Of a stretch of 25,715 nucleotides of DNA, positions 8,503 to 25,050 are shown in pieces; position 1 is the first letter of the stretch, and the number at the start of each line of letters is the position of its first letter. A program made the position numbers and the translations under genes. Below the pieces are notes generated by a model. The model saw nothing but the letters and a program-made list of their open reading frames with translations. It had not been told where the DNA came from and searched no databases. Source of the stretch: a virus; the IMG/VR virus record IMGVR_UViG_3300042875_000489, positions 1-25,715 of that record. The stretch is one strand, 5' to 3'.

Positions 8503-8840
8503 TTTTTCCTCAACTTTAAACTAATGATTTGTTTGTCATCTGTATAGGCTACACCATTGAGGGCATCGAGAATAGCTTTGGCGTAATTATCTATATCCCC
8601 ACGCAGTTTTGATGGATTCTTTGATGGCCTTAATTCTTTAATAATTATTTCTGTTTTGTCTTTGTCAAAAATTAACTCAACTTCTAGTGGGCCATCAGCA
8701 AAGGCAACACCCGTATAAAGCTCTGAAATAAGTTTCTCGTACTCTCTTGTTTCTTTGGGTGTGTAGGTATGGCCTGAACGAGTACTTCTTGGGCGTTGTT
8801 TTGAACGCGGCTTAACAGCAAAGATTTGTTTGTGAATCAT
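8499..8840 (-). CDS. rusA: RusA-type Holliday junction resolvase
   Basis: A 113-residue protein with the RusA signature. A basic N-terminal stretch (KPRSKQRPRSTRSGHTYTPK) is followed by GDIDNYAKAILDALNGVAY at residues 81-99 and the TDDKQI segment at 100-105. The acidic residues Asp82, Asp84, Asp101 and Asp102 correspond to the metal-binding site that cuts four-way DNA junctions. RusA resolvases are dimers common in phages, where they resolve recombination or replication intermediates before packaging. The start overlaps the primase stop and the stop overlaps the next start, both as ATGA, so translation is probably coupled along the cluster. The protein is slightly shorter than the usual 120 residues, ending in a basic tail. 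Confidence 0.88.
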   Translation of the reverse strand: MIHKQIFAVKPRSKQRPRSTRSGHTYTPKETREYEKLISELYTGVAFADGPLEVELIFDKDKTEIIIKELRPSKNPSKLRGDIDNYAKAILDALNGVAYTDDKQIISLKLRKK

Positions 8841-9718
8841 TCGCCGTAAACGTCAGCAATGATTTTTGAGATGTGCATATCGCCATCTTCACGCAAATAA
8901 AATTTACCCCAACGAATATCAGCAGAACGAATAATACCATAGGCAACATCAGCCGTTAAACCATCAGACCTAAGCCTGTAAGCAAGACGCACTAATGTGC
9001 CAGAACGGTCTGAGTCTGGCAACGGTCCATCCATAAACATTTTTAGCGAATAAGGTCTTAATAGACTTTTTGCCACATCAACAGGAATGGCAGCATTTCC
9101 ACCAACAAAACTCAATGATTGCTTTGGTACATACATGTCTGCCAATGGCATTAATTGATTTTCCGTAACACGATTTTTTATGGCTTCTTCAACAAAAACA
9201 TTAAGCGGCATTGGTTTGTCTGCGCTATCCATAATGAAGCGAACACCCATTGGTTCAAACAATTCACCTGGATACGGCAAACGAACATAGTTGCCGTAAC
9301 CAGAAGCTTCTTCTTGTTTTGGATTAATTTCTTTAGCCGGCACTTTGACGGCAGAGTGTGCGGCGAGCAACGCTCGACGCATCACTCGCGCGGCAACTGG
9401 CTCACTTGCAAACACCCAGATGTGAAAGCCCTTGACTGTGCGTTCAACCCAACTTTCAATAGACTTCAACTTTAGGGCTAGTTGTATATTGCGGGCTTGG
9501 TCAATATCATCCACATCAATGTCTGAACACCCCCACCAAACTGTGTTGGTGGGAAGCATTGGATATATGCCGATATATTCTTGCCCCCACAAATGTTTCA
9601 AATACTTTGATGGAGTAACTTCTTCTTTGATGCAGCCACCTTCCCACGAACCGTAGGCGTCTGTACGACCGGCAAACAAAGAAGCAAAGTTTTTAACGAG
9701 TTCAGAATTGTCGTTCAT
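8837..9718 (-). CDS. Archaeo-eukaryotic-type DNA primase (AEP/TOTE-like)
   Basis: A 293-residue protein with the conserved blocks of archaeo-eukaryotic primases, especially those of the TOTE-conflict or phage type. WWGCSDIDVDD at residues 61-71 provides the metal-binding Asp66 and Asp68, KGFHIWVF at 96-103 holds the conserved His, and EINPKQ at 130-135 leads into GNYVRLP at 142-148. A C-terminal helical region (DRSGTLVRLAYRLRSDGL, then ADIRWGKF) resembles the PriCT-like domain that follows such primases. It should make primers, and may extend them, for the DnaB-like helicase encoded just upstream. The frame extends 12 codons further upstream, but ATG 9718 follows a GCGAGG ribosome site while the upstream ATG has none. 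It overlaps the helicase gene by 17 bases. Confidence 0.78.
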   Translation of the reverse strand: MNDNSELVKNFASLFAGRTDAYGSWEGGCIKEEVTPSKYLKHLWGQEYIGIYPMLPTNTVWWGCSDIDVDDIDQARNIQLALKLKSIESWVERTVKGFHIWVFASEPVAARVMRRALLAAHSAVKVPAKEINPKQEEASGYGNYVRLPYPGELFEPMGVRFIMDSADKPMPLNVFVEEAIKNRVTENQLMPLADMYVPKQSLSFVGGNAAIPVDVAKSLLRPYSLKMFMDGPLPDSDRSGTLVRLAYRLRSDGLTADVAYGIIRSADIRWGKFYLREDGDMHISKIIADVYGE

Positions 9719-10754
9719 GAAAACCTCGCAAATATTGTTTTGGTAAATCACCATTTAGTAGTGGCATTAGACGACCAGTAGCTAAATCTATTTCATAATC
9801 AATGTCATCTACAAGTTGACCAGCTGGTCGTTTGTTTTTCAACAAACTGACTGTAACGGTGTACTCGTGAATCTTTGCTTCGTATCGCAGAGAATCGAGG
9901 CGCTCCATTGAGCGCTCTGAGTGTGTTTTGTCAAGCTTGTTGATGATTTCGTTCATCTCAGCCATGATGGAATATTTTTTACGACGCACACCAATGACCG
10001 ATGTTGCTTGTTGTTCGCCACCAAAAGCACCTGATGACATGGTTAGTTTTGCTCCATCAGCGCCTGAGGAACGGGAAGTTTGATGCAACACCAGCATTGG
10101 TATGTCATGTCTACGACCAAACGATTTAACGAATGTTGCTTTGTCGGGAACCGTTTCGCCTGCTTCTACTAGGTCAAGGTAGTCCACGACTACAAGGTCA
10201 GGTACTTGTCCCCACACATCACACACTTCGTTATATGCCCGCTCCATGTCTATGCCGGTCAATGGTTGGTCAAACACAGCGAGATTGGGGAAGTTTTCTT
10301 CGGCGGTTTCTCTAAGTAAATCAATTGCGTCAGTGTCGTCCATTGCAACTAATCGTTCTAGTTCTCGAGCATCAATGCCGTGGTACATGCAGGTTAGTTT
10401 TGTTAAAACAAGTTGGCGTGGTTCGTCTGGAATGAACATTGCAATGTGTTTGTCGCGATTCTCAAGCAGGGAATGCAACAACAATAATGTTTTGCCACCG
10501 TGCGCATACCCAATCATCATTGACATTTCGCCTGCAGCAATGCCACGCATTTCGGCATCTATTTGTGGTAATCCTAAATGGATTCTTTCTTGTGGGCTTT
10601 GTGCCCATCGGACAAAAGAATGAGCCGCTTCTGAAAGTGGTTCATACATTTTGTATTCACTTGGCGGGATAATAGAAGATGGTGGAGAATCAGGACTGAC
10701 CTGCTTCTCCACCATGTCCCAACCCGCAGAAATTTGCTCTGCGGTAAGTTTCAT
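9702..10754 (-). CDS. DnaB-like replicative helicase (RecA fold)
   Basis: This 350-residue protein has a RecA-type ATPase core: Walker A GYAHGGKT at residues 82-89, Walker B DLVVVDYLDL at 186-195, and a LVLHQTSRSS segment at 221-230 that fits the sensor strand of DnaB/RadA-like ATPases. A GLPQIDAEMRGIAAGEM segment just before Walker A is typical of DnaB C-terminal domains. The N-terminal primase-binding domain of bacterial DnaB is absent or reduced to about 50 residues, and some phage helicases share this short form. It should unwind DNA as a ring and act with the primase encoded next. The ATG directly follows the upstream TAA with no gap. A RadA/KaiC-like recombination ATPase is the main alternative. 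Confidence 0.78.
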   Translation of the reverse strand: MKLTAEQISAGWDMVEKQVSPDSPPSSIIPPSEYKMYEPLSEAAHSFVRWAQSPQERIHLGLPQIDAEMRGIAAGEMSMMIGYAHGGKTLLLLHSLLENRDKHIAMFIPDEPRQLVLTKLTCMYHGIDARELERLVAMDDTDAIDLLRETAEENFPNLAVFDQPLTGIDMERAYNEVCDVWGQVPDLVVVDYLDLVEAGETVPDKATFVKSFGRRHDIPMLVLHQTSRSSGADGAKLTMSSGAFGGEQQATSVIGVRRKKYSIMAEMNEIINKLDKTHSERSMERLDSLRYEAKIHEYTVTVSLLKNKRPAGQLVDDIDYEIDLATGRLMPLLNGDLPKQYLRGFHERQF

Positions 10755-12199: not shown

Positions 12200-12706
12200 T
12201 TACGCGCGCCACGGTAGCCATCCGTTTCCGTATTCTTTATGCGAATAAAGCCATATTAACCTTGCTGCCAATAGGTTTACCCGAGGTAAATAAAGTTCTT
12301 CACAACTATTTAATACTCCAAAGGTTTGCAAGTATCCATTTGGATACCATTTTGAGGGTTTGCACCAGTACGCATTGATTTGTGTAAGCCCAAAAGACCC
12401 CCCATTGGGGTCTTTGCCATAGTGAACCCATGTAAAACACCGAGATTCTCGATGAATAACTGAATCTAATTTGGCAAGGTCTTGTTCTTCCCAACCTACA
12501 TTTACGGCTAGTTGAGCCCATTCAGGGCACAACATATTATTTGGCAAAATGATTCTGTCTTTATAGGTTTGCGGTGGGCTTTTAGGGATTGAAAATTGCT
12601 CTACATTTAGTGGCAACACCTGTATTTTTTGTGGTATTTTAGGTGGAGTTAGGGTCCATCCAATAAGCAACACCCCAACAACAACAATTAACAATCGTTT
12701 AAACAC
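12200..12706 (-). CDS. Membrane-anchored lysozyme/transglycosylase-like protein
   Basis: A 168-residue protein. Residues 4-18 are a hydrophobic segment after a short basic start (MFKRLLIVVVGVLLIG), a signal peptide or anchor without a clear AxA cleavage site. The domain from residue 60 resembles lysozyme-like transglycosylases: VIHRESRC places Glu87 as the catalytic acid, and GSFGLTQIN at 103-111 is the conserved motif after it. Cys60, Cys90, Cys115 and Cys135 could form disulphides outside the cell. It starts with GTG behind a GGAG ribosome site that overlaps the WhiB stop; a nearby out-of-frame ATG leads to an immediate stop. Its place in the regulatory operon, away from the endolysin, is unusual. 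Confidence 0.7.
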   Translation of the reverse strand: MFKRLLIVVVGVLLIGWTLTPPKIPQKIQVLPLNVEQFSIPKSPPQTYKDRIILPNNMLCPEWAQLAVNVGWEEQDLAKLDSVIHRESRCFTWVHYGKDPNGGSFGLTQINAYWCKPSKWYPNGYLQTFGVLNSCEELYLPRVNLLAARLIWLYSHKEYGNGWLPWRA

Positions 12707-12708
12707 AT

Positions 12709-13014
12709 TTACTCCTTTAGTTTTATTTTGGAAATTTTTCTATGTGTAAATAATCTGCCGCCCCAAACGCCTACACAATCATATTCTTTAGCAAAGTTGA
12801 AACATTCTTGTTTAACTTTACATTCATTGCATGTTTTGAATGCGTTATAAAGATTAGAGCCAGGGCTTATAGAAATTCTACCTCCTTTTCCATCTGGCGG
12901 AAAGAACCAATCACTAGGGCAATTGGTGCAATTTGCGTATTTATAAATCGGATTAAGTTCTTTGGATATTTTTTCGTTTTTTAAATCTTTGAGTTTTACC
13001 CATTTTTCAGCCAT
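12709..13014 (-). CDS. whiB: WhiB-family Fe-S transcription regulator
   Basis: A 101-residue protein with WhiB hallmarks. Cys32, Cys62, Cys65 and Cys71 are spaced as in the 4Fe-4S site (one Cys, then CxxCxxxxxC in TCNECKVKQEC), FFPP follows the first cysteine, and GVWGG at residues 82-86 is the turn before a basic tail (HRKISKIKLK) that would contact DNA. Extra cysteines are at 29 and 80. WhiB proteins occur only in Actinobacteria and their phages, where they bind the sigma factor and change promoter choice; phage versions can interfere with host WhiB functions. The frame starts three codons earlier at an ATG directly abutting GGGAGG. ATG 13014 has the proper nine-base spacing and lies two bases after the upstream stop. 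Confidence 0.88.
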   Translation of the reverse strand: MAEKWVKLKDLKNEKISKELNPIYKYANCTNCPSDWFFPPDGKGGRISISPGSNLYNAFKTCNECKVKQECFNFAKEYDCVGVWGGRLFTHRKISKIKLKE

Positions 13015-13016
13015 TA

Positions 13017-13244
13017 TTACCATCCTCCCATTTCGATAAATGATTCACCATTGATATCCCAACCTTCTTCACGAAGAAGTTGTGATATTATTTCACAACC
13101 GGCTTCATAAACGTATGATTGAAGTAATAGTTCTATACTTTCTAGCGCAACACACGCAGCCGCACCTTTAAGGTGTGGCATTGCTTCGCGCACATCTGCA
13201 TCTGTAAATCCAACAGATATTTGCATGGCATAATTGTCGCTCAT
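13017..13244 (-). CDS. Hypothetical small protein
   Basis: A 75-residue protein beginning MSDNYAMQISVGFTDADV. An upstream-extended reading exists, but ATG 13244 has an AAGGA site seven bases upstream and overlaps the previous stop as ATGA, so it is the likely start. The centre is a hydrophobic helix-like stretch (AAACVALESIELLLQSYVY) without the length of a membrane span, followed by EIISQLLREEGW. No family is recognised. It lies directly before WhiB and its stop is two bases from the WhiB start. Confidence 0.65.
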   Translation of the reverse strand: MSDNYAMQISVGFTDADVREAMPHLKGAAACVALESIELLLQSYVYEAGCEIISQLLREEGWDINGESFIEMGGW

Positions 13245-14883: not shown

Positions 14884-15915
14884 TTATTGTTTAATTTTTG
14901 TTTCACGTGTCATTTCTCCATCTTTTTCATCCCAATTAATAAATGATTCACCGTATTCGTAGTGTTCCCAACAATTGCAATCTGTGTTTGCACAAGCTAG
15001 ACACGTTTTGCAAGCGCCACAATGAGTGGCGCTTGGTTCTAACGCATCAACATAATAAATTGCGCCACAATTCCAACAATTAACAGTCGCATAATCTTGA
15101 TTTGAATAATCTGTGAAGATTGTGATTTTGTTCATTATTGAAGTATCTGGATACAGCTCATCTTGTATATAATCAACCGTGTCGTCAAATGTCCAAGCGC
15201 TATTTGTTTTATGAAACGAACTATTCCAACCACTAACTTCATCGTCCCAATCGTCATACTGACGATAAATATCAGTTTTGTTATCTGATTTTGGAGTACC
15301 AAGATATGGCGAACTATAGCCGTAACCATAATTGTAATTTGAATATTTGTATCCGTAATTTTGTTTGTAGGAACTATTAGACCACCACATGCCGGCGTCC
15401 CAATGCCCAGATTTTTCATTGACGATATACCAATTATGTTTGGCTTTTTCGTTTGTAGTCAATACAACCAACTTGTTACCAATTGCCCAATTTTCTAATT
15501 CTTCAAATCTTTCTTGATTGTCGAGCGCTTCAACACCGCCAATCGCTGGAAGGATTAGTTCAGCAAACAGTTTTGTGTCTGAACGATGGTCGTTGATTGG
15601 CATTGTTAACGGCAAAATGCCGTTGTGTGCCAACACAGTGTCTGGCTTGCCATCAACATCAAATGGGTGACAATTGTTTATGTCGGTATGACCGTGTGTT
15701 GTAATACGAAAATGGAATAACGCAGGGCCACGATAGGTTTTTCTTAAATCACTCCATCGCAACCATAGTTTTTCGAAATCCATATCATGGTCTTTGATTA
15801 TGGCAACACCTGCATGGATAGCAAAACCGAACCCATCAGGGTTTGATTTTGCGCTCACACGCGCTCGTTCATAGTCGAAATCAATGTTTTCTGGTAGGAA
15901 AGTTAATAAACACAT
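14884..15915 (-). CDS. Class II glutamine amidotransferase with Cys-rich tail
   Basis: A 343-residue protein whose mature N-terminus would be Cys2 (MCLLTFLP), the catalytic nucleophile of class II (Ntn-type) glutamine amidotransferases. Other family motifs follow in order: NPDGFGF at residues 25-31, HFRITTHG at 68-75, NCHPF at 81-85, AHNGIL at 96-101 and SDTKLF at 112-117. The domain would release ammonia from glutamine. After it comes a Tyr/Asn/Gly-rich linker (about 183-204), then a Cys-rich region with CWNC at 280-283 and several CxxC pairs at 299-315 that could bind zinc. The frame extends 36 codons upstream, but only ATG 15915 exposes Cys2 correctly and it lies one base after the amidoligase stop. 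The coupling suggests that it feeds ammonia to that ligase. Confidence 0.85.
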   Translation of the reverse strand: MCLLTFLPENIDFDYERARVSAKSNPDGFGFAIHAGVAIIKDHDMDFEKLWLRWSDLRKTYRGPALFHFRITTHGHTDINNCHPFDVDGKPDTVLAHNGILPLTMPINDHRSDTKLFAELILPAIGGVEALDNQERFEELENWAIGNKLVVLTTNEKAKHNWYIVNEKSGHWDAGMWWSNSSYKQNYGYKYSNYNYGYGYSSPYLGTPKSDNKTDIYRQYDDWDDEVSGWNSSFHKTNSAWTFDDTVDYIQDELYPDTSIMNKITIFTDYSNQDYATVNCWNCGAIYYVDALEPSATHCGACKTCLACANTDCNCWEHYEYGESFINWDEKDGEMTRETKIKQ

Positions 15916-15916
15916 A

Positions 15917-16957
15917 TTATTTTGTATCCGTTTCTGCTTGCAGAACATTTCTGCTATTAGCTCTAGTAATGAAATTTTGATATAGATTGTCTTGTGCTTC
16001 CGCAAATTTAAGCAATGGCGCAAACGAAGTTAGGGCATTGTTTTTTATTGCTTCGGCAGCTGTTACTTGTTGCGAATAAGAAAATAAACAATGCACAAAT
16101 TCGGCATATGCCAAAACTGTAGTAAAACGCAAAGATGGTCTAAAAATACGCAATTCGTGCGTATTGTAGTTTGAACGATTTACTGCAAGGTTGCGTTCAA
16201 ATTGACCAGGTACATACTCGCCATTTTTGCGCACACCTTTAACAACTTCCAAAACAGTTGGTTTGTTTGCTATATCTAGATGTGTAGGTGCGCCCACAAA
16301 AGAATCTAAATCAAACTTAGCATAGCCTGATTGGCGACCAGCAAACTTAACCAATGTTTTTTTGTTTTTGAATATGAAATACAAAAACTTTGCTTCGTGC
16401 TTGGTGTCAGTAAAAGCATTTTTAGATATATGAATGTGTAAGCCACACGTAGAAGTACCCCATGCGCGATAACCGTTTTTGCGCAAATAGTCTAAACATG
16501 TTTTGTAGCGTTGTGCGTGGTTTTGTAAATAGTTTAGTGTCATTGGATGCGACACAATTTCAAAACCATGATTGATTGAACAATCTTCTTTTAGATATAC
16601 CAGACCATCAGCTGTATTGTTAATATAATTAGCAGCATGAGACAAATAATTTTCATCAACTAACTCCGTTTCTAGTTCGATACCCATCATGGGTTCGTAA
16701 ATGTTGTTTGTTTTTTGGTGTGTGAGTCTTGCGTTGCCGTCAGAGTGGTGAAAAATGGTTTCAGGTTTGTAGCTGTAACCATGAATGCCACTACTGTTGC
16801 TGTCATTTTCTGCTTCGTATTCTGCTTCGTGAATTACATCTGAATAGCAGTCATCGCAATATTGGTCGCCTTCATAGCGGTTTATTTCGCGATTTGTTTC
16901 AAATTCGTATTCGCACCTATCGCAATAACCCAATTCTTCACTTGCTTGTCTTGGCAT
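15917..16957 (-). CDS. Amidoligase (glutamine-synthetase-like COOH-NH2 ligase) with N-terminal zinc ribbon
   Basis: A 346-residue protein. Residues 12-37 carry two CxxC knuckles (Cys12/15 and Cys34/37), a probable zinc ribbon. Residues 90-330 match the phage amidoligase family related to glutamine synthetase: MGIELETE at 91-98, LKEDCSI at 122-128, FEIVSHP at 132-138, CGLHIHIS at 171-178 and NTHELRIFR at 265-273. The Glu and His residues would hold metal and ATP. Such enzymes are predicted to join a carboxyl group to an amine or ammonia, and have been proposed to modify peptides or wall components; substrates are mostly unproven. A strong AAGGAG site precedes the ATG. The amidotransferase follows after one base, implying a two-enzyme unit. 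Confidence 0.82.
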   Translation of the reverse strand: MPRQASEELGYCDRCEYEFETNREINRYEGDQYCDDCYSDVIHEAEYEAENDSNSSGIHGYSYKPETIFHHSDGNARLTHQKTNNIYEPMMGIELETELVDENYLSHAANYINNTADGLVYLKEDCSINHGFEIVSHPMTLNYLQNHAQRYKTCLDYLRKNGYRAWGTSTCGLHIHISKNAFTDTKHEAKFLYFIFKNKKTLVKFAGRQSGYAKFDLDSFVGAPTHLDIANKPTVLEVVKGVRKNGEYVPGQFERNLAVNRSNYNTHELRIFRPSLRFTTVLAYAEFVHCLFSYSQQVTAAEAIKNNALTSFAPLLKFAEAQDNLYQNFITRANSRNVLQAETDTK

Positions 16958-16969
16958 GTTGAGTCTCCT

Positions 16970-17137
16970 TTATGAGATTCTGTTTCGGTTGTTGTATGAC
17001 TCTGCTGATTCTTCTATGTTTTCTATTTCCGAATGAACCAATAACAATATGTCGTTAATTTTTTCGGATTGATTAGACCAATGACCATTACGATAAATAA
17101 TTGCCATGATGTGGCGCAATAATTGTTCTTTATTCAT
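16970..17137 (-). CDS. 55-residue protein before the amidoligase
   Basis: The product begins MNKEQLLRHIMAIIYRNGHW and ends in an acidic and then Asn/Arg-rich helix (IENIEESAESYNNRNRIS). The frame is open further upstream through a hairpin, but ATG 17137 follows an AAAGA-rich stretch and overlaps the preceding gene by eight bases. Its stop is 12 bases before the amidoligase start. Function is unknown; its position suggests an accessory peptide for the amidoligase unit. Confidence 0.6.
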   Translation of the reverse strand: MNKEQLLRHIMAIIYRNGHWSNQSEKINDILLLVHSEIENIEESAESYNNRNRIS

Positions 17138-17429
17138 ATTTTTTTTCTTTGTTAGGTTGGCTTGCGCCCCGCGAAGCGGGGGGCGCAAGACGACCGACAT
17201 TTGGTTCTACAACAGAAAGGGATTTGAATTTTCCAAATGTTTCGACTTCAATTAAACCTTCATCAGACAAAACATAACGCTTATTGTCTTTGTCAACATA
17301 GTGCCACGCCAAATTTTTGGCATCACGCACATCAACATTAGTAATAGTGTTTGAAGCTTTTATTAAAGCGTCGTAGAAATTATTTGCTTCTGTTTCGCAT
17401 TGAACTAACAAACGAATGTTATATTTCAT
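17130..17429 (-). CDS. Hypothetical protein, 99 residues
   Basis: The product begins MKYNIRLLVQCETEANNFYDAL, a strand-helix start, followed by DVRDAKNLAWHYVDKDNKRYVL. The last 25 residues (from VEPNVGRLAPP) are read through the GC-rich hairpin at 17161-17189, which may explain their Pro/Ala/Gly-rich composition. A longer reading starting at 17579 adds a Thr-Pro repeat, but ATG 17429 has an AAAGGA site and is preferred. No family is recognised. Confidence 0.6.
   Translation of the reverse strand: MKYNIRLLVQCETEANNFYDALIKASNTITNVDVRDAKNLAWHYVDKDNKRYVLSDEGLIEVETFGKFKSLSVVEPNVGRLAPPASRGASQPNKEKKYE
17161..17189. other. GC-rich hairpin before the 55-residue gene
   Basis: The arms CTTGCGCCCC and GGGGCGCAAG form ten pairs, extended by GC/GC with a two-base bulge around a GAA loop. 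No T run follows on either strand. It lies 24 bases before ATG 17137, within the end of the upstream reading frame. Confidence 0.55.
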
Positions 17430-17456
17430 GTTTTTTCCTTTTTTGTTGAAAATGCC

Positions 17457-17487
17457 ACACCCGAACGGTTGATTGCGACACCCGAAC
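17457..17487 (-). repeat. Tandem GTTCGGGTGT, 21-base period
   Basis: On the leftward strand the ten-base word GTTCGGGTGT occurs twice, at 17478-17487 and 17457-17466, exactly 21 bases apart, which is two turns of the helix. They lie 28 to 58 bases before the start of the 17130-17429 gene, as expected for a regulator binding two sites on the same face. If the longer reading frame were translated, the repeat would encode a repeated FGC, so a coding repeat is the alternative. Confidence 0.45.
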
Positions 17488-17628
17488 AGATTTAAGCGGT
17501 CAGTTGTAGTGACGATTGAGTTTTGAGGCTCTGGTGTTGGTGTTGGTGTTGGTGTTGTCGCCGTCGCGGTAGCGAACATAGGCGACGGAATTTCAAAACG
17601 CGCGTTCCGCGTTTTGCTTCCTAGTAAT

Positions 17629-17674
17629 GCGTTAAGAAACCGAGAGTCCTGTGGACTCTCGGTTTCGATAACGC
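17629..17674 (-). terminator. Candidate terminator after the first three operon genes
   Basis: The core arms AAACCGAGAGTCC and GGACTCTCGGTTT pair perfectly over 13 bases around a three-base loop. An outer GCGTTA/TAACGC pair extends the stem with a small internal loop. Read leftward, the core is followed by CTTAACGC, so only a short T-rich stretch (TTTCTT) overlaps the stem end. It lies 15 bases past the stop of the 17689-18009 gene. It could be a terminator, or an attenuator that lets some transcripts continue into the amidoligase section. Confidence 0.5.
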
Positions 17675-17688
17675 TTATGCTGAGTGAA

Positions 17689-18009
17689 TTACTCAGACTT
17701 GCTTACCGTCAACGCTGTCAACGGCTTGAAGGCTGGTTGAGTAATAACCAAGTTACCGCCAAGCATTAACTGCTGTTTCGGTTGAGTCAATTCGTACTCA
17801 ATACCGTCCTTGACATAGGAAGTTACAGGTGAACCCATAGCAACCACTTCGTCAATTTCAAGAGTAACTCCAGCACGAATGTTGTGTGTAGTTACAAGTT
17901 CGTTAGGCAACCAAGCCCAAGGACGGATTCCGTCAACTGCCGTAAAAGATACAGCAGTTGATTTAGGACCAGAGTTGCTAACTCCAGCCACGATTAATGT
18001 TGTACTCAT
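17689..18009 (-). CDS. Hypothetical beta-rich protein, 106 residues
   Basis: The product begins MSTTLIVAGVSNSGPKSTAVSF. It contains aromatic and strand-forming stretches (IRPWAWLPNELV, GVTLEIDEVV) and a C-terminal block YVKDGIEYELTQPKQQLMLGG. The alternation suggests a small beta-barrel, and OB-fold single-strand DNA binding is one possibility, but there is no diagnostic motif. ATG 18009 follows an AAAGGA site; the upstream extension runs through the 18058-18091 hairpin and was discarded. It is followed closely by the candidate terminator. Confidence 0.6.
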   Translation of the reverse strand: MSTTLIVAGVSNSGPKSTAVSFTAVDGIRPWAWLPNELVTTHNIRAGVTLEIDEVVAMGSPVTSYVKDGIEYELTQPKQQLMLGGNLVITQPAFKPLTALTVSKSE

Positions 18010-18057
18010 TATTGTTTCCTTTCGGTTGTGTTTATATTGTTTACTTCTGAGAAGCGA

Positions 18058-18091
18058 TTTCTTTGCCCCGCGCAACGCGGGGGGCAAGAAA
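18058..18091. other. GC-rich intercistronic hairpin
   Basis: The arms TTTCTTTGCCCCGCG and CGCGGGGGGCAAGAAA pair with two small bulges around a CAA loop. It sits between the 18096-18410 and 17689-18009 genes, about 48 bases before ATG 18009. Its core (GCCCC..., GGGGGGC) resembles the 17161-17189 hairpin. No T run follows in the leftward direction. Confidence 0.55.
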
Positions 18092-18095
18092 CTCG

Positions 18096-18410
18096 CTAAT
18101 GGTTCTCTCCACAGACACACTCAAAGTTGCGAGCAACCCAGAGAAATGTCTCATCACATAGCACTTCTGATGGCGATATTGGAAACACATCGCCAACTTT
18201 TGCGTCTGAATAATCTGGTTCAACAGACATATTCAGCATTGCTCTGAGTTCGTCAGGCTCATCAGCAGGATTTGAATTGATAAGCAAGTCATCAACTTGC
18301 TCAACAATGCCAGAGTCATCAAGAGAGCGTTGTCGCCGTACAGCGTCACGCTCAAACTGGTCTGGCAACTTGATGTTGATTCGCTTAATGTTCTTAAGGT
18401 CTAACTTCAT
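18096..18410 (-). CDS. Hypothetical protein, 104 residues
   Basis: The product begins MKLDLKNIKRINIKLPDQF and is then charged and acidic (VEQVDDLLINSNPADEPDEL). It ends with a possible metal-binding or structural pair in FECVCGENH. ATG 18410 follows an AAAGG site; the frame is open 16 codons upstream through a hairpin, which I discarded. No family is recognised. The N-terminal IKRINIKLPDQFERD resembles short beta segments in phage proteins that govern other small genes, but this is only an impression. Confidence 0.6.
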   Translation of the reverse strand: MKLDLKNIKRINIKLPDQFERDAVRRQRSLDDSGIVEQVDDLLINSNPADEPDELRAMLNMSVEPDYSDAKVGDVFPISPSEVLCDETFLWVARNFECVCGENH

Positions 18411-18430
18411 AACAACCTTTCTGATAGAGA

Positions 18431-18465
18431 GTGAACGGTGCGCGCCATCGGGGCGCACCGTTCAC
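18431..18465. other. 13-bp perfect hairpin between two small genes
   Basis: The arms GTGAACGGTGCGC and GCGCACCGTTCAC pair perfectly. Rightward it is followed by GGGTTTGTTTTTT, the shape of an intrinsic terminator for rightward or antisense transcripts. Leftward, in the sense of the genes, it is preceded by this run as A residues and followed by TCTCTATC. It lies 21 bases before ATG 18410. Confidence 0.6.
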
Positions 18466-18476
18466 GGGTTTGTTTT

Positions 18477-18737
18477 TTACAAAGACTCCGTAAAGTCTTC
18501 TTGACTCTGAATGAACTCAAGGGCATTGTGTGCGCCATGCTCATCAGCGAGCGACCATAGTGCTTGAGCCGTGAAACGGTCAAGAACACGGTAAGCCCAG
18601 TCACCGTAAGACAACTCAATCAGTTCAATCAAGTTTTGATATGGGTCTGCCGTTGTTACTTCTTGATATTCTTCAACTTCTTCATACGCTTGGATGTCGC
18701 CAAACATATGAATACCTAACATCGTGTCACTATCCAT
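18477..18737 (-). CDS. Hypothetical acidic protein, first gene of the long leftward operon
   Basis: This 86-residue protein is strongly acidic (QAYEEVEEYQEVTTADPY). It has a helical centre (LIELIELSYGDWAYRVLDRF) and ends FIQSQEDFTESL. ATG 18737 follows a strong AAGGAG site; an upstream extension to 18821 runs through a hairpin and is discarded. High acidity and early position could suit a host-protein inhibitor or DNA mimic, but this is speculation. No family is recognised. Confidence 0.6.
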   Translation of the reverse strand: MDSDTMLGIHMFGDIQAYEEVEEYQEVTTADPYQNLIELIELSYGDWAYRVLDRFTAQALWSLADEHGAHNALEFIQSQEDFTESL

Positions 18738-22533: not shown

Positions 22534-23451
22534 ATGTCTAGATATGGTCAGCGCACACTTGTTGGTGACAATCGTGCAATAACAGGTCTCGGTAAAGCAC
22601 CTGCGGCTGCTGGAACGCCTATAATTGATTTCCTTGTTCAAGCAGGCGGTGGTGCAGGCGGTGGCGGTATTGCTGGTGGTGGCGGTGCTGGTGGTTTGCG
22701 TAGTTCTGTTTCTGCTACGGGTGGTGGTGCAACATATTTAGAACCTGCTCTTTCATTAATCACGGGTAGAAGTTATGCGGTGGTTGTCGGTGCTGGCGGT
22801 GCTGGTGGTAGTGGCACTTATCCAAATATTACAAAAGGGTCTAACGGCGGTAACTCATCTTTTGATGTATATACATCAACTGGTGGCGGTGCTGGCGGTT
22901 CATACACCATTGAGGTGGCTGGTAGTGGTGGCGGTTGTGGTGGTGGTGGTGCGTATGGTGCTACTTCTGGTTCAGGAACTACTAGTCAGGGTTTTGCTGG
23001 TGGTGGTGGTAGCACGGGTGGTCGTGGTGGTGGCGGAACTTCCGCAGTAGGTGGCAACGCTGGTTCGCCATCAAGTGCTGGCGGTAATGGTGGTGCTGGG
23101 GCAAGCAACGATATTACTGGTTCATCTGTGTCGTATGGCGGTGGCGGTGGCGGTGGCGGATATAATGCAGCATCGGGAACTGGTGGTGCTGGTGGCGGTG
23201 GTGCTGGTGGCGCATCAGCCGGAACGGCAGGCACAGCAGGCACAGCAAATACAGGTGGCGGTGGTGGCGGTGGCAGAGGCACGGGTGGTAGTTATACAAC
23301 AGCAGCGGGTGGAAGCGGTGTCGTGATTGTGCGCTATCCATCGACATACACAATCACTATTGGTGCTGGACTTACAGGTTCAACGGCTACATCGGGAAGT
23401 AATAAAGTTACGACCATTACTGCTGGTTCAGGCAATTTAAGTTGGGCGTAG
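22534..23451 (+). CDS. Glycine-rich tail tip adhesin
   Basis: This 305-residue protein begins MSRYGQRTLVGDNRAITGLG. From about residue 36 to 270 it is dominated by long runs of Gly with Ala, Ser and Thr. Such regions in phage tail-fibre adhesins fold as packed polyglycine II helices and display variable loops that bind the host surface. After a GSGVVIVRYP strand near 265-275 comes a C-terminal segment typical of tail-fibre proteins (TITAGSGNLSWA). It is probably a receptor-binding protein. The repeated GGTGGC/GGTGGT codons make the DNA repetitive and create long open frames on other strands that are shadows. The start has only a weak ribosome site. Confidence 0.78.
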   Translation: MSRYGQRTLVGDNRAITGLGKAPAAAGTPIIDFLVQAGGGAGGGGIAGGGGAGGLRSSVSATGGGATYLEPALSLITGRSYAVVVGAGGAGGSGTYPNITKGSNGGNSSFDVYTSTGGGAGGSYTIEVAGSGGGCGGGGAYGATSGSGTTSQGFAGGGGSTGGRGGGGTSAVGGNAGSPSSAGGNGGAGASNDITGSSVSYGGGGGGGGYNAASGTGGAGGGGAGGASAGTAGTAGTANTGGGGGGGRGTGGSYTTAAGGSGVVIVRYPSTYTITIGAGLTGSTATSGSNKVTTITAGSGNLSWA

Positions 23452-24146
23452 TGAGACAATTTATTGCTCTTAGTGGTTTGCCACGCTCAGGTTCAACTTT
23501 GTTGTCGGCTATCTTGCATCAGAACCCTGACATTTATGCTGAAGGTAATTCGGCTGTGTGTCAGTTGATGTGGGATATGCAACAGTCCTGTGAAACAACA
23601 TCAAAAGAACAGTTAGATGCAAACTATCGTTATGACACGGCGTATCAACTCGTTAAAGCAATTCCCGATATTTATTATCGAAATACGACACGACCAATCG
23701 TGGTTGATAAATGCCGTTCGTGGACTTTGTCACCTAACCAAGATTTGTTACGCCGATATGTTACTGATACACCAAAAACAATCGTTCTAACTAGACCAAC
23801 AGATGAAATTCTCAATTCATTTGAGTCACTTCACAAATTGAACAATAAACCTTTTGATGCAAACGAATATCTACGAGAGGACAGCGAACCTTTGATGCGT
23901 TCTTTGCGTGGTGTTGAATGGGCGAAACAAGTTAATCAAGGCGAGTTTTTGTTTATTGATTACGCAGAACTGGTTGCCGACACAAACGAAGTGCTGGACA
24001 AGATTTATTCTTTCATTGATGCAAAAAGATTTGAACACGACCTAGAGAATATAGAAAATACTTTGCCTGAAAACGATGCGGTGTATGGTTTGTTGGGTAT
24101 GCACGATGTTCGTAAAACAATTAAATTAAGAACAGAGGTCATCTAA
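23451..24146 (+). CDS. Sulfotransferase
   Basis: A 231-residue protein with the sulfotransferase P-loop-like 5'-phosphosulfate loop GLPRSGSTLLS at residues 9-19, which binds the sulfate donor PAPS. A strand-helix segment TIVLTRPTDEILNSF further on fits the 3'-phosphate-binding region. Such enzymes transfer sulfate to hydroxyl or amine groups on sugars, peptides or lipids. In phages they are thought to modify host surface or virion components. A GTG at 23451 overlaps the adhesin's stop by one base and gives MRQFIALSGLP; a TTG three codons earlier is possible. The gene sits directly behind the adhesin, suggesting a virion or surface substrate. Confidence 0.78.
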   Translation: MRQFIALSGLPRSGSTLLSAILHQNPDIYAEGNSAVCQLMWDMQQSCETTSKEQLDANYRYDTAYQLVKAIPDIYYRNTTRPIVVDKCRSWTLSPNQDLLRRYVTDTPKTIVLTRPTDEILNSFESLHKLNNKPFDANEYLREDSEPLMRSLRGVEWAKQVNQGEFLFIDYAELVADTNEVLDKIYSFIDAKRFEHDLENIENTLPENDAVYGLLGMHDVRKTIKLRTEVI

Positions 24147-24456: not shown

Positions 24457-25050
24457 ATGCTTCATTACAAACCTAACGAAACCCATTCAATTACTTATCC
24501 GTATTGTTATGAACACGAGTTATTTAACCGTCAAGAACTAAAAAAAATAATTACTTACTGTGATTTGTTGCCAAAAGAAATAGGAGAAATAGGTAATGGT
24601 TTGCAACTTTCTAAAAGAAAAGATGTTCGCAAATCCAATATTGCTTGGGTTGAGTACAATAATGAATGTAAATGGTTTTACGACAAATTGGCATCTGCGA
24701 TTGACACATTAAATCAAAACTTTTATAAGTTTGATTTAGTTGGTTTTCACAATTATCAGTTTACGGAATACAAAGCAAAAGATAAAGGCAAATATGATTG
24801 GCATATGGATACTATGTTAAGCAATAATGCCGAGCCATTAACTCGAAAATTGTCGGTTACTTTATTATTGAATGACAATTTTGATGGCGGTCAATTTGAG
24901 TTTTTTGATTTAGAAAAAGAACATCAACCAAAGATGACGGCTGGAACTTTAATTGTTTTTCCGTCTTTTATGGTTCATAGAGTTACCGAAATAACCAAAG
25001 GTGTTCGCAATTCGTTGGTGTGTTGGTGTGTTGGTCCAAAATTTAAATGA
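24457..25050 (+). CDS. 2-oxoglutarate/Fe(II)-dependent oxygenase
   Basis: A 197-residue protein with the double-stranded beta-helix metal site of prolyl-hydroxylase-like oxygenases: YDWHMDT supplies His116 and Asp118, and a second His174 sits in FPSFMVHRVTE. The 2-oxoglutarate carboxylate would be held by Arg184 (KGVRNSLV). RKLSVTLLLN at 130-139 and DGGQFEFF at 143-150 are family strands. Such enzymes hydroxylate amino acid side chains or nucleotides. No ribosome site is visible. It lies behind the sulfotransferase and conserved-protein genes, so the two modifying enzymes form a small accessory group after the adhesin. Confidence 0.8.
   Translation: MLHYKPNETHSITYPYCYEHELFNRQELKKIITYCDLLPKEIGEIGNGLQLSKRKDVRKSNIAWVEYNNECKWFYDKLASAIDTLNQNFYKFDLVGFHNYQFTEYKAKDKGKYDWHMDTMLSNNAEPLTRKLSVTLLLNDNFDGGQFEFFDLEKEHQPKMTAGTLIVFPSFMVHRVTEITKGVRNSLVCWCVGPKFK

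Follow-up and report, generated by a model that had tools for sequence, protein, structure and literature searches.

The window analysed here is the whole stretch of 25,715 nt of the IMG/VR virus record IMGVR_UViG_3300042875_000489, and its subject is a pair of neighboring minus-strand genes, the first predicted to encode a glutamine synthetase (GS)-like amidoligase and the second a class II glutamine amidotransferase (table 1). Both predicted open reading frames (ORFs) were found where an earlier note on this DNA had placed them, and the single base that it had reported between them was confirmed on the coding strand, where the passage from the ligase stop to the amidotransferase start reads ...ACA AAA TAA T ATG TG.... 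The ligase start follows a strong AAAGGAG ribosome-binding site, and no such site precedes the amidotransferase start, which is part of a TAATATG stop-start; this arrangement suggests that the translation of the two genes may be coupled. The promoter scan gave no more promoter-like sites than in shuffled sequence, and no Rfam match was obtained in the window.

Table 1. Features of the gene pair and the WhiB-type gene; positions count from the first letter of the window, and residue counts refer to the aligned relatives.
Feature	Position	Strand	Remarks
GS-like amidoligase gene	15917..16957	minus	346 aa; ATG 16957, stop 15917; ribosome-binding site ahead
Ligase N-terminal Cys ribbon, C12xxC15...C34xxC37	16847..16924	minus	kept in 65-69/69
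Ligase motif G92-I-E94-L-E96	16670..16684	minus	expected metal/ATP site; G92, E94, E96 invariant in 69
Ligase motif D125-C-S127...E133	16559..16585	minus	D125, S127, E133 invariant in 69
Ligase motif G172-L-H174-I-H176-I-S	16424..16444	minus	G172, H174, H176 invariant in 69
Ligase motif N260...T266-H-E268-L-R270	16148..16180	minus	N260, T266, E268, R270 invariant in 69
Class II glutamine amidotransferase gene	14884..15915	minus	343 aa; ATG 15915, stop 14884; MCLLTF N-terminus
Cys2, predicted N-terminal nucleophile after Met removal	15910..15912	minus	MC start in 73/73
Glutamine-binding stretch (R70, T73, H74, G75, N81, H83, N98, G99, D113)	15577..15708	minus	each in 71-73/73
Predicted disordered linker between catalytic domain and tail, residues 188-238, Tyr-rich at start	15202..15354	minus	pLDDT <50
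Amidotransferase eight-Cys tail, residues 280-315	14971..15078	minus	pLDDT about 81-94
WhiB-family transcription factor gene	12709-13023	minus	36.2 bits, cut-off 23.6

All the motifs that the earlier note had named in the 346-residue ligase, that is, GIELE (residues 92-96), KEDCSI (123-128), CGLHIHIS (171-178), and NTHELRIFR, were located, and its placement of the protein among the GS-like amidoligases is supported by both the profile and the predicted fold. In detail, the ligase passes the cut-off of the Pfam model Amidoligase_2 (PF12224) with 24.2 bits against 22, and the same model is matched by 68 of the 69 aligned relatives (E<=0.01). AlphaFold2 (AF2) models were built from alignments of the window and viral-locus proteins, and structural Z differences <1 were counted as ties. 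The ligase model, with a mean predicted local distance difference test (pLDDT) score of 91.6, is predicted to have the GS/GCS fold, that is, the fold of the glutamine-synthetase-like carboxylate-amine ligases. Its best matches are the YbdK-type structures 1tt4 (Z 12.7, root mean square deviation [rmsd] 4.2 over 227 residues) and YbdK itself (1r8g, Z 12.2), followed by plant glutamate-cysteine ligase (GCL, Z 11.9) and the glutamine synthetases (about Z 11.7). The respective search of solved structures with the ligase sequence profile returned chance matches only, plus a weak match to YbdK. Invariant in 69/69 ligases are G92, E94, E96, K123, D125, S127, E133, G172, H174, H176, R208, N260, T266, E268, and R270. 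These include the acidic, histidine, and arginine residues expected at the metal-ATP site (E94, E96, D125, E133, H174, H176, R208, E268, R270), with residue roles assigned by family and not by superposition; the GIELE motif would contribute to this site by analogy with the GS/GCS family.

The exposed Cys2, the Tyr-rich stretch (about residues 183-225), and the tail with several CxxC pairs, as described before for the amidotransferase, are all present. Its membership in the class II family is supported by the predicted fold and by a complete set of glutamine-binding residues. The AF2 model (mean pLDDT 84.6) matches GlmS (Z 14.4, rmsd 3.8 over 173 residues), EgtC (Z 13.9), and PurF (Z 13.2), and the Pfam model GATase_4 (PF13230) is matched by 72 of the 73 amidotransferase relatives (E<=0.01; best E 8.8e-9). 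Cys2, R70, T73, G75, N81, H97, N98, G99, and D113 are invariant in all 73, and H68 and H83 (72/73 each) and H74 (71/73) nearly so. A profile alignment to human GFAT covers the R/T/H/G/N part of the glutamine-binding stretch, and the conserved residues include the nucleophile, glutamine-binding, and oxyanion-hole positions of GlmS.

The survey of gene neighborhoods that had been suggested for the homologues showed an essentially strict pairing. Thus, neither of the two outcomes that the earlier note had named as refuting its reading occurred, and its reading is partly supported. From 80 viral loci fetched by amidotransferase-only patterns and 80 fetched by ligase-only patterns, the partner was adjacent, on the same strand, and with the ligase first in 79 and 79, respectively; in both exceptions (L076 and L152), the position expected for the partner lies beyond the contig end. 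The gaps between the pair members range from -146 to +146 bases. After the removal of near-identical copies, 78 pairs remained, and the distances in the ligase and amidotransferase trees correlated at 0.83 (999 shuffles reach <=0.15). The two trees share 24 supported splits, and 4 of 34 supported splits are in conflict, against about 34 expected by chance. In the 12 closest amidotransferase pairs, the ratio of nonsynonymous to synonymous substitution rates (dN/dS) is about 0.12-0.26 and usually lower in the catalytic part, which indicates that the amidotransferase is under purifying selection. The neighbors of the pair vary by lineage. A WhiB-type gene is found in the flanks of 43/78 loci, after which no neighbor family exceeds 31 loci, and thus there is no constant third gene. 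Since the neighbors differ between lineages, the conserved unit is the pair and not the region.

Each protein of the pair carries a Cys module, and the double CxxC ribbon reported for the ligase is present at its N-terminus. C12 is kept in 68, C15 in 65, C34 in 69, and C37 in 66 of the 69 ligases. Five Cys-to-His swaps, a kind of exchange typical of zinc ligands, were found in the ribbon. Longer ligase relatives contain up to eight CxxC, and one of them matches the Pfam LIM model. The tail of the amidotransferase follows the pattern C280xxC283...C299xxC302xxC305xxC308...C313xC315, in which C280, C283, C299, and C302 occur in 73/73 and C305, C308, C313, and C315 in 72/73 sequences. The single exception (L169) keeps the first four Cys and has lost the last four together as a block, and this one sequence suggests that the tail may consist of two four-Cys sites. 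The retrieval patterns excluded the Cys residues, so their conservation is not circular, and with few or no exceptions at each Cys position among about 70 relatives, the modules are not due to chance. They are most likely zinc sites, a putative role drawn from the sequence pattern. The earlier note had considered the paired modules as standing out; the modules are real, but they are a trait of the whole subfamily, shared by those ~70 relatives, and no peculiarity of this phage.

The two modules differ in their spread. The MEP401 and MEP402 phages of OM43 bacteria and the podovirus ctgrD200 show the same pair order and an N-terminal CxxC on the ligase, and, unlike that of the window, their amidotransferase has no eight-Cys tail. 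Since the ligases of MEP402 and ctgrD200 still carry CxxC pairs in the absence of this tail, the ligase module is the more widespread of the two. The tail is also absent from the amidotransferase of phage C75C1 (L005 5001-5897), which is fused to a gamma-glutamyl cyclotransferase (GGCT), with an amidoligase gene located a few small genes upstream. In Amycolatopsis jejuensis (L172 5926-6816), the similarity of the amidotransferase is lost after about residue 150 and no Cys tail is found, and this copy is possibly decayed or disrupted.

The pair with both modules is found in Mycobacterium phage Marvin and in other mycobacteriophages of cluster S. In Marvin, gp105 and gp106, both annotated as glutamine amidotransferase domain proteins, show the same gene order and the same two Cys modules in a phage of an actinobacterial host. 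The Marvin ligase is longer (453 aa), its extra C-terminal part having again a CxC and a CxxC, and the amidotransferase is 299 aa long, with a shorter stretch before the tail and 39% identity to the window protein in the catalytic part. The pair is also carried by plasmids of M. intracellulare (chimaera), M. paragordonae, and M. abscessus; both modules were read directly on the M. intracellulare (chimaera) and M. abscessus plasmids, and a fourth plasmid has a partial amidotransferase with the tail. At L184 and L185 (plasmids NZ_CP015269.1 and NZ_CP065286.1), the two genes are annotated as amidoligase and glucosamine 6-phosphate synthetase, and both plasmids also have a RAMP-superfamily CRISPR-associated gene and a PAPS reductase. 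Of these, plasmid pGD21-2 harbors a locus for type VII secretion in addition, and the annotation of its first 100 kb and last 13 kb names no virion gene. On the chromosome of Labedaea rhizosphaerae, the pair with both modules adjoins a single-stranded DNA-binding protein gene and a TrwC relaxase. As the stringent patterns retrieved four loci only from 84,980 bacterial and archaeal genomes, the pair is mainly a trait of mobile DNA. WhiB proteins are actinobacterial, and the one encoded in the window indicates that the host of this virus is most likely an actinobacterium.

Similar cassettes are known from other phages, and the prediction that those of the LUZ24/phiEco32 type modify peptidoglycan reportedly comes from Iyer 2009. 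As in the window, an Amidoligase_2 gene is followed by a class II amidotransferase gene in LUZ24 (gp18/gp19) and phiEco32 (gp84/gp83). On the other hand, the respective cassettes (LUZ24 gp16-gp22 and phiEco32 gp77-gp86) add a COOH-NH2 ligase, a RimK-like ATP-grasp protein, and GGCT, and their ligases lack CxxC and their amidotransferases lack the tail pattern of the window. In the 21 contigs of the window subfamily, some possibly incomplete, neither GGCT (0/21; controls LUZ24, phiEco32, and C75C1 positive) nor the COOH-NH2 ligase (PF14395; 0/21; controls LUZ24 and phiEco32 positive) was found. The RimK-like ATP-grasp model gave no match in the 21 contigs either, but it is an insensitive model which missed LUZ24 and only grazed phiEco32. 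The window pair thus belongs to the LUZ24/phiEco32 families and general kind, as an unusually well conserved two-gene variant with paired Cys modules. AsnB/LtsA and MurT/GatD share the proposed reaction type with the window pair; the AsnB-type and Mur ligase-type synthetase folds are unrelated to that of the window ligase, and the glutaminase GatD is of class I type. For these enzymes, glutamine-dependent amidation of peptidoglycan stem-peptide carboxylates is described in bacteria (PMC8554201, PMC3266927). The defence models of PADLOC-DB matched neither the ligase nor the amidotransferase. The Natrialba phage PhiCh1 (L177 4737-6384) was considered as a haloarchaeal case and was not counted, with a profile comparison of 0.3-0.5% probability; a class II amidotransferase is encoded there by gp40, and the product of the preceding gene, gp41, shows GMEIE, GSHVHL, and IELR by eye only. 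If this pair is real, peptidoglycan is excluded as its substrate.

The favored interpretation, to which an even chance is given, is that the two genes form one two-subunit, ATP-dependent glutamine amidotransferase that would amidate a carboxylate, the target being probably a protein or an envelope molecule of the host. The downstream protein would hydrolyse glutamine by means of Cys2, and the GS-like ligase encoded upstream would activate a carboxylate with ATP and Mg2+ and attach the ammonia so released as an amide. The Cys modules may serve to link the two subunits or to place them on the substrate. The mobile element might benefit by securing its position in the host, e.g., through the exclusion of rivals. 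The scheme builds on the families, the predicted folds, the conserved active-site and Cys residues, the pairing, and the co-inheritance, which are shown, and from these we infer metal binding, the complex, the ammonia transfer, the substrate, and the benefit. That the genes are chance neighbors or decaying remnants with no joint function is refuted by the strict pairing, the agreement of the trees, the purifying selection, and the invariant active sites, and its probability is negligible. The main rival, rated as rather improbable, concerns the chemistry: a make-and-remove gamma-glutamyl pair, in which the ligase links an amine to the gamma-carboxylate of glutamate, a bond that the class II protein later hydrolyses, so that no free ammonia is passed. 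The same two folds act in this manner in the actinobacterial ergothioneine pathway, through EgtA, which is homologous to gamma-glutamylcysteine ligase, and the class II amidohydrolase EgtC (PMC9103826). The closest folds to the ligase, YbdK and plant GCL, are gamma-glutamyl ligases, the conserved glutamine-binding residues fit a gamma-glutamyl substrate too, and the fusion in C75C1 joins an amidotransferase to a gamma-glutamyl cyclotransferase. However, other enzymes act between EgtA and EgtC, and a make-and-remove cycle needs an intermediate step, and the pair has no third enzyme as a constant neighbor. The sequence models also differ, as glmS is matched by 71/73 and purF by 35/73 amidotransferases against 1/73 for EgtC (TIGR03442; E 0.0026), which gave no match for the window protein itself; for this reason, ammonia-producing chemistry, with glutamine as the source of an amide, is probably the better account. 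Several points weigh against the two-subunit amidotransferase. Taken alone, the window amidotransferase remains under the GATase_4 cut-off (20 vs 23 bits), and EgtC is tied with GlmS as a fold match (Z 13.9 vs 14.4), so that the fold comparison does not separate the two chemistries. No fusion of ligase and amidotransferase occurs among all ORFs of the retrieved loci, and the argument for a host molecule proceeds by elimination, from flanks of 5-6 kb on contigs of which many are partial.

With regard to the substrate, the lack of a constant third gene and the occurrence of the pair on a relaxase-bearing element and mycobacterial plasmids as well as on phages argue, if weakly, against a phage-encoded peptide; a molecule of the host, whether a protein or a carboxylate of the envelope or the peptidoglycan, is more likely. 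Two specific versions have to be weighed. According to the one, which is possible and held tentatively, the pair is a reduced peptidoglycan cassette of the LUZ24/phiEco32 type that would act on the stem peptide and block superinfection or tune lysis, and this is compatible with either chemistry. Three reports contain the proposal that a phage amidoligase and class II amidotransferase modify peptidoglycan and block superinfection (PMC10580990, PMC11945000, PMC5498523), and, in addition to the two families occurring in the same order in LUZ24 and phiEco32, a lysozyme-like gene lies downstream of the window pair in the same strand run. Amidation of the stem-peptide Glu is real and important in mycobacteria (PMC10484409), and a peptidoglycan carboxylate is a plausible substrate in actinobacteria. 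On the contrary, the accessory GGCT and COOH-NH2 ligase are missing, and no measurement of wall chemistry was found in the accessible literature on such cassettes. Furthermore, a protein named amidoligase in Catovirus, a giant virus of eukaryotes, has the same predicted fold, and thus members of the ligase family are not confined to a role in peptidoglycan. According to the other version, which is unlikely, the zinc modules would guide the pair to a phage- or host-encoded protein, which it would modify, e.g., by amidating a side-chain or C-terminal carboxylate, and the GS-like Pup ligase would be its functional counterpart. The Pup-directed enzymes PafA and Dop have the GS-like fold too, and the N-terminus of the ligase grows among relatives from one to several CxxC modules that are at times LIM-like; such modules usually bind proteins. 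Still, the pair has no substrate protein as a constant neighbor, and PafA and Dop, which work without an amidotransferase, are weaker fold matches than YbdK and GS.

Other genes of the window were recorded as well. A secreted-looking protein with a weak, lysozyme-like SLT_3 match (21.3 bits, under the cut-off of 27) is encoded at 12200-12706 (minus), in the same strand run as the pair, and its relatives occur in 27/78 pair loci. The region 16900-18500, which precedes the ligase on the coding strand, contains small ORFs and, among them, three short and near-perfect hairpins (17155-17195, 17636-17666, and 18431-18465), none of which matched Rfam. A primase with an AEP domain of the type found in TOTE conflict systems (72 bits; 8837-9754, minus) adjoins a RusA resolvase and a DnaB-like helicase. 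A sulfotransferase (23442-24146, plus; 57 bits) and a 2-oxoglutarate (2OG)-Fe(II) oxygenase (24457-25050, plus; 55 bits) are placed close together, and the oxygenase gene is followed by an ORF with a PA14 domain and a Thr/Ser-rich stretch, which runs off the window.

As a wider and more speculative proposal, the pair may represent a stand-alone two-subunit amidation system specific to actinobacterial mobile elements, whether these are phages, plasmids of mycobacteria (one of them with type VII secretion genes), or an element with a relaxase in a chromosome. In such a system, the two subunits would be brought together by their matched zinc modules, which would also direct the complex to a single host target, and the outcome would concern the surface or superinfection exclusion and not virion biology. 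As there are two genes, with no cyclotransferase or second ligase detected, the chemistry may be complete in two proteins. Amidoligase-amidotransferase sets of phages were predicted in 2009, and no experimental test of them was found in the accessible literature. Because mycobacterial plasmids and Marvin, a phage that can be grown on the laboratory strain M. smegmatis mc2 155, both carry the pair, the question of the substrate is directly testable. Should phages, plasmids, and the relaxase-bearing element all use the pair for the same function, its spread over them would speak for a benefit to mobile DNA that is directed at the host and not for a function in the virion.

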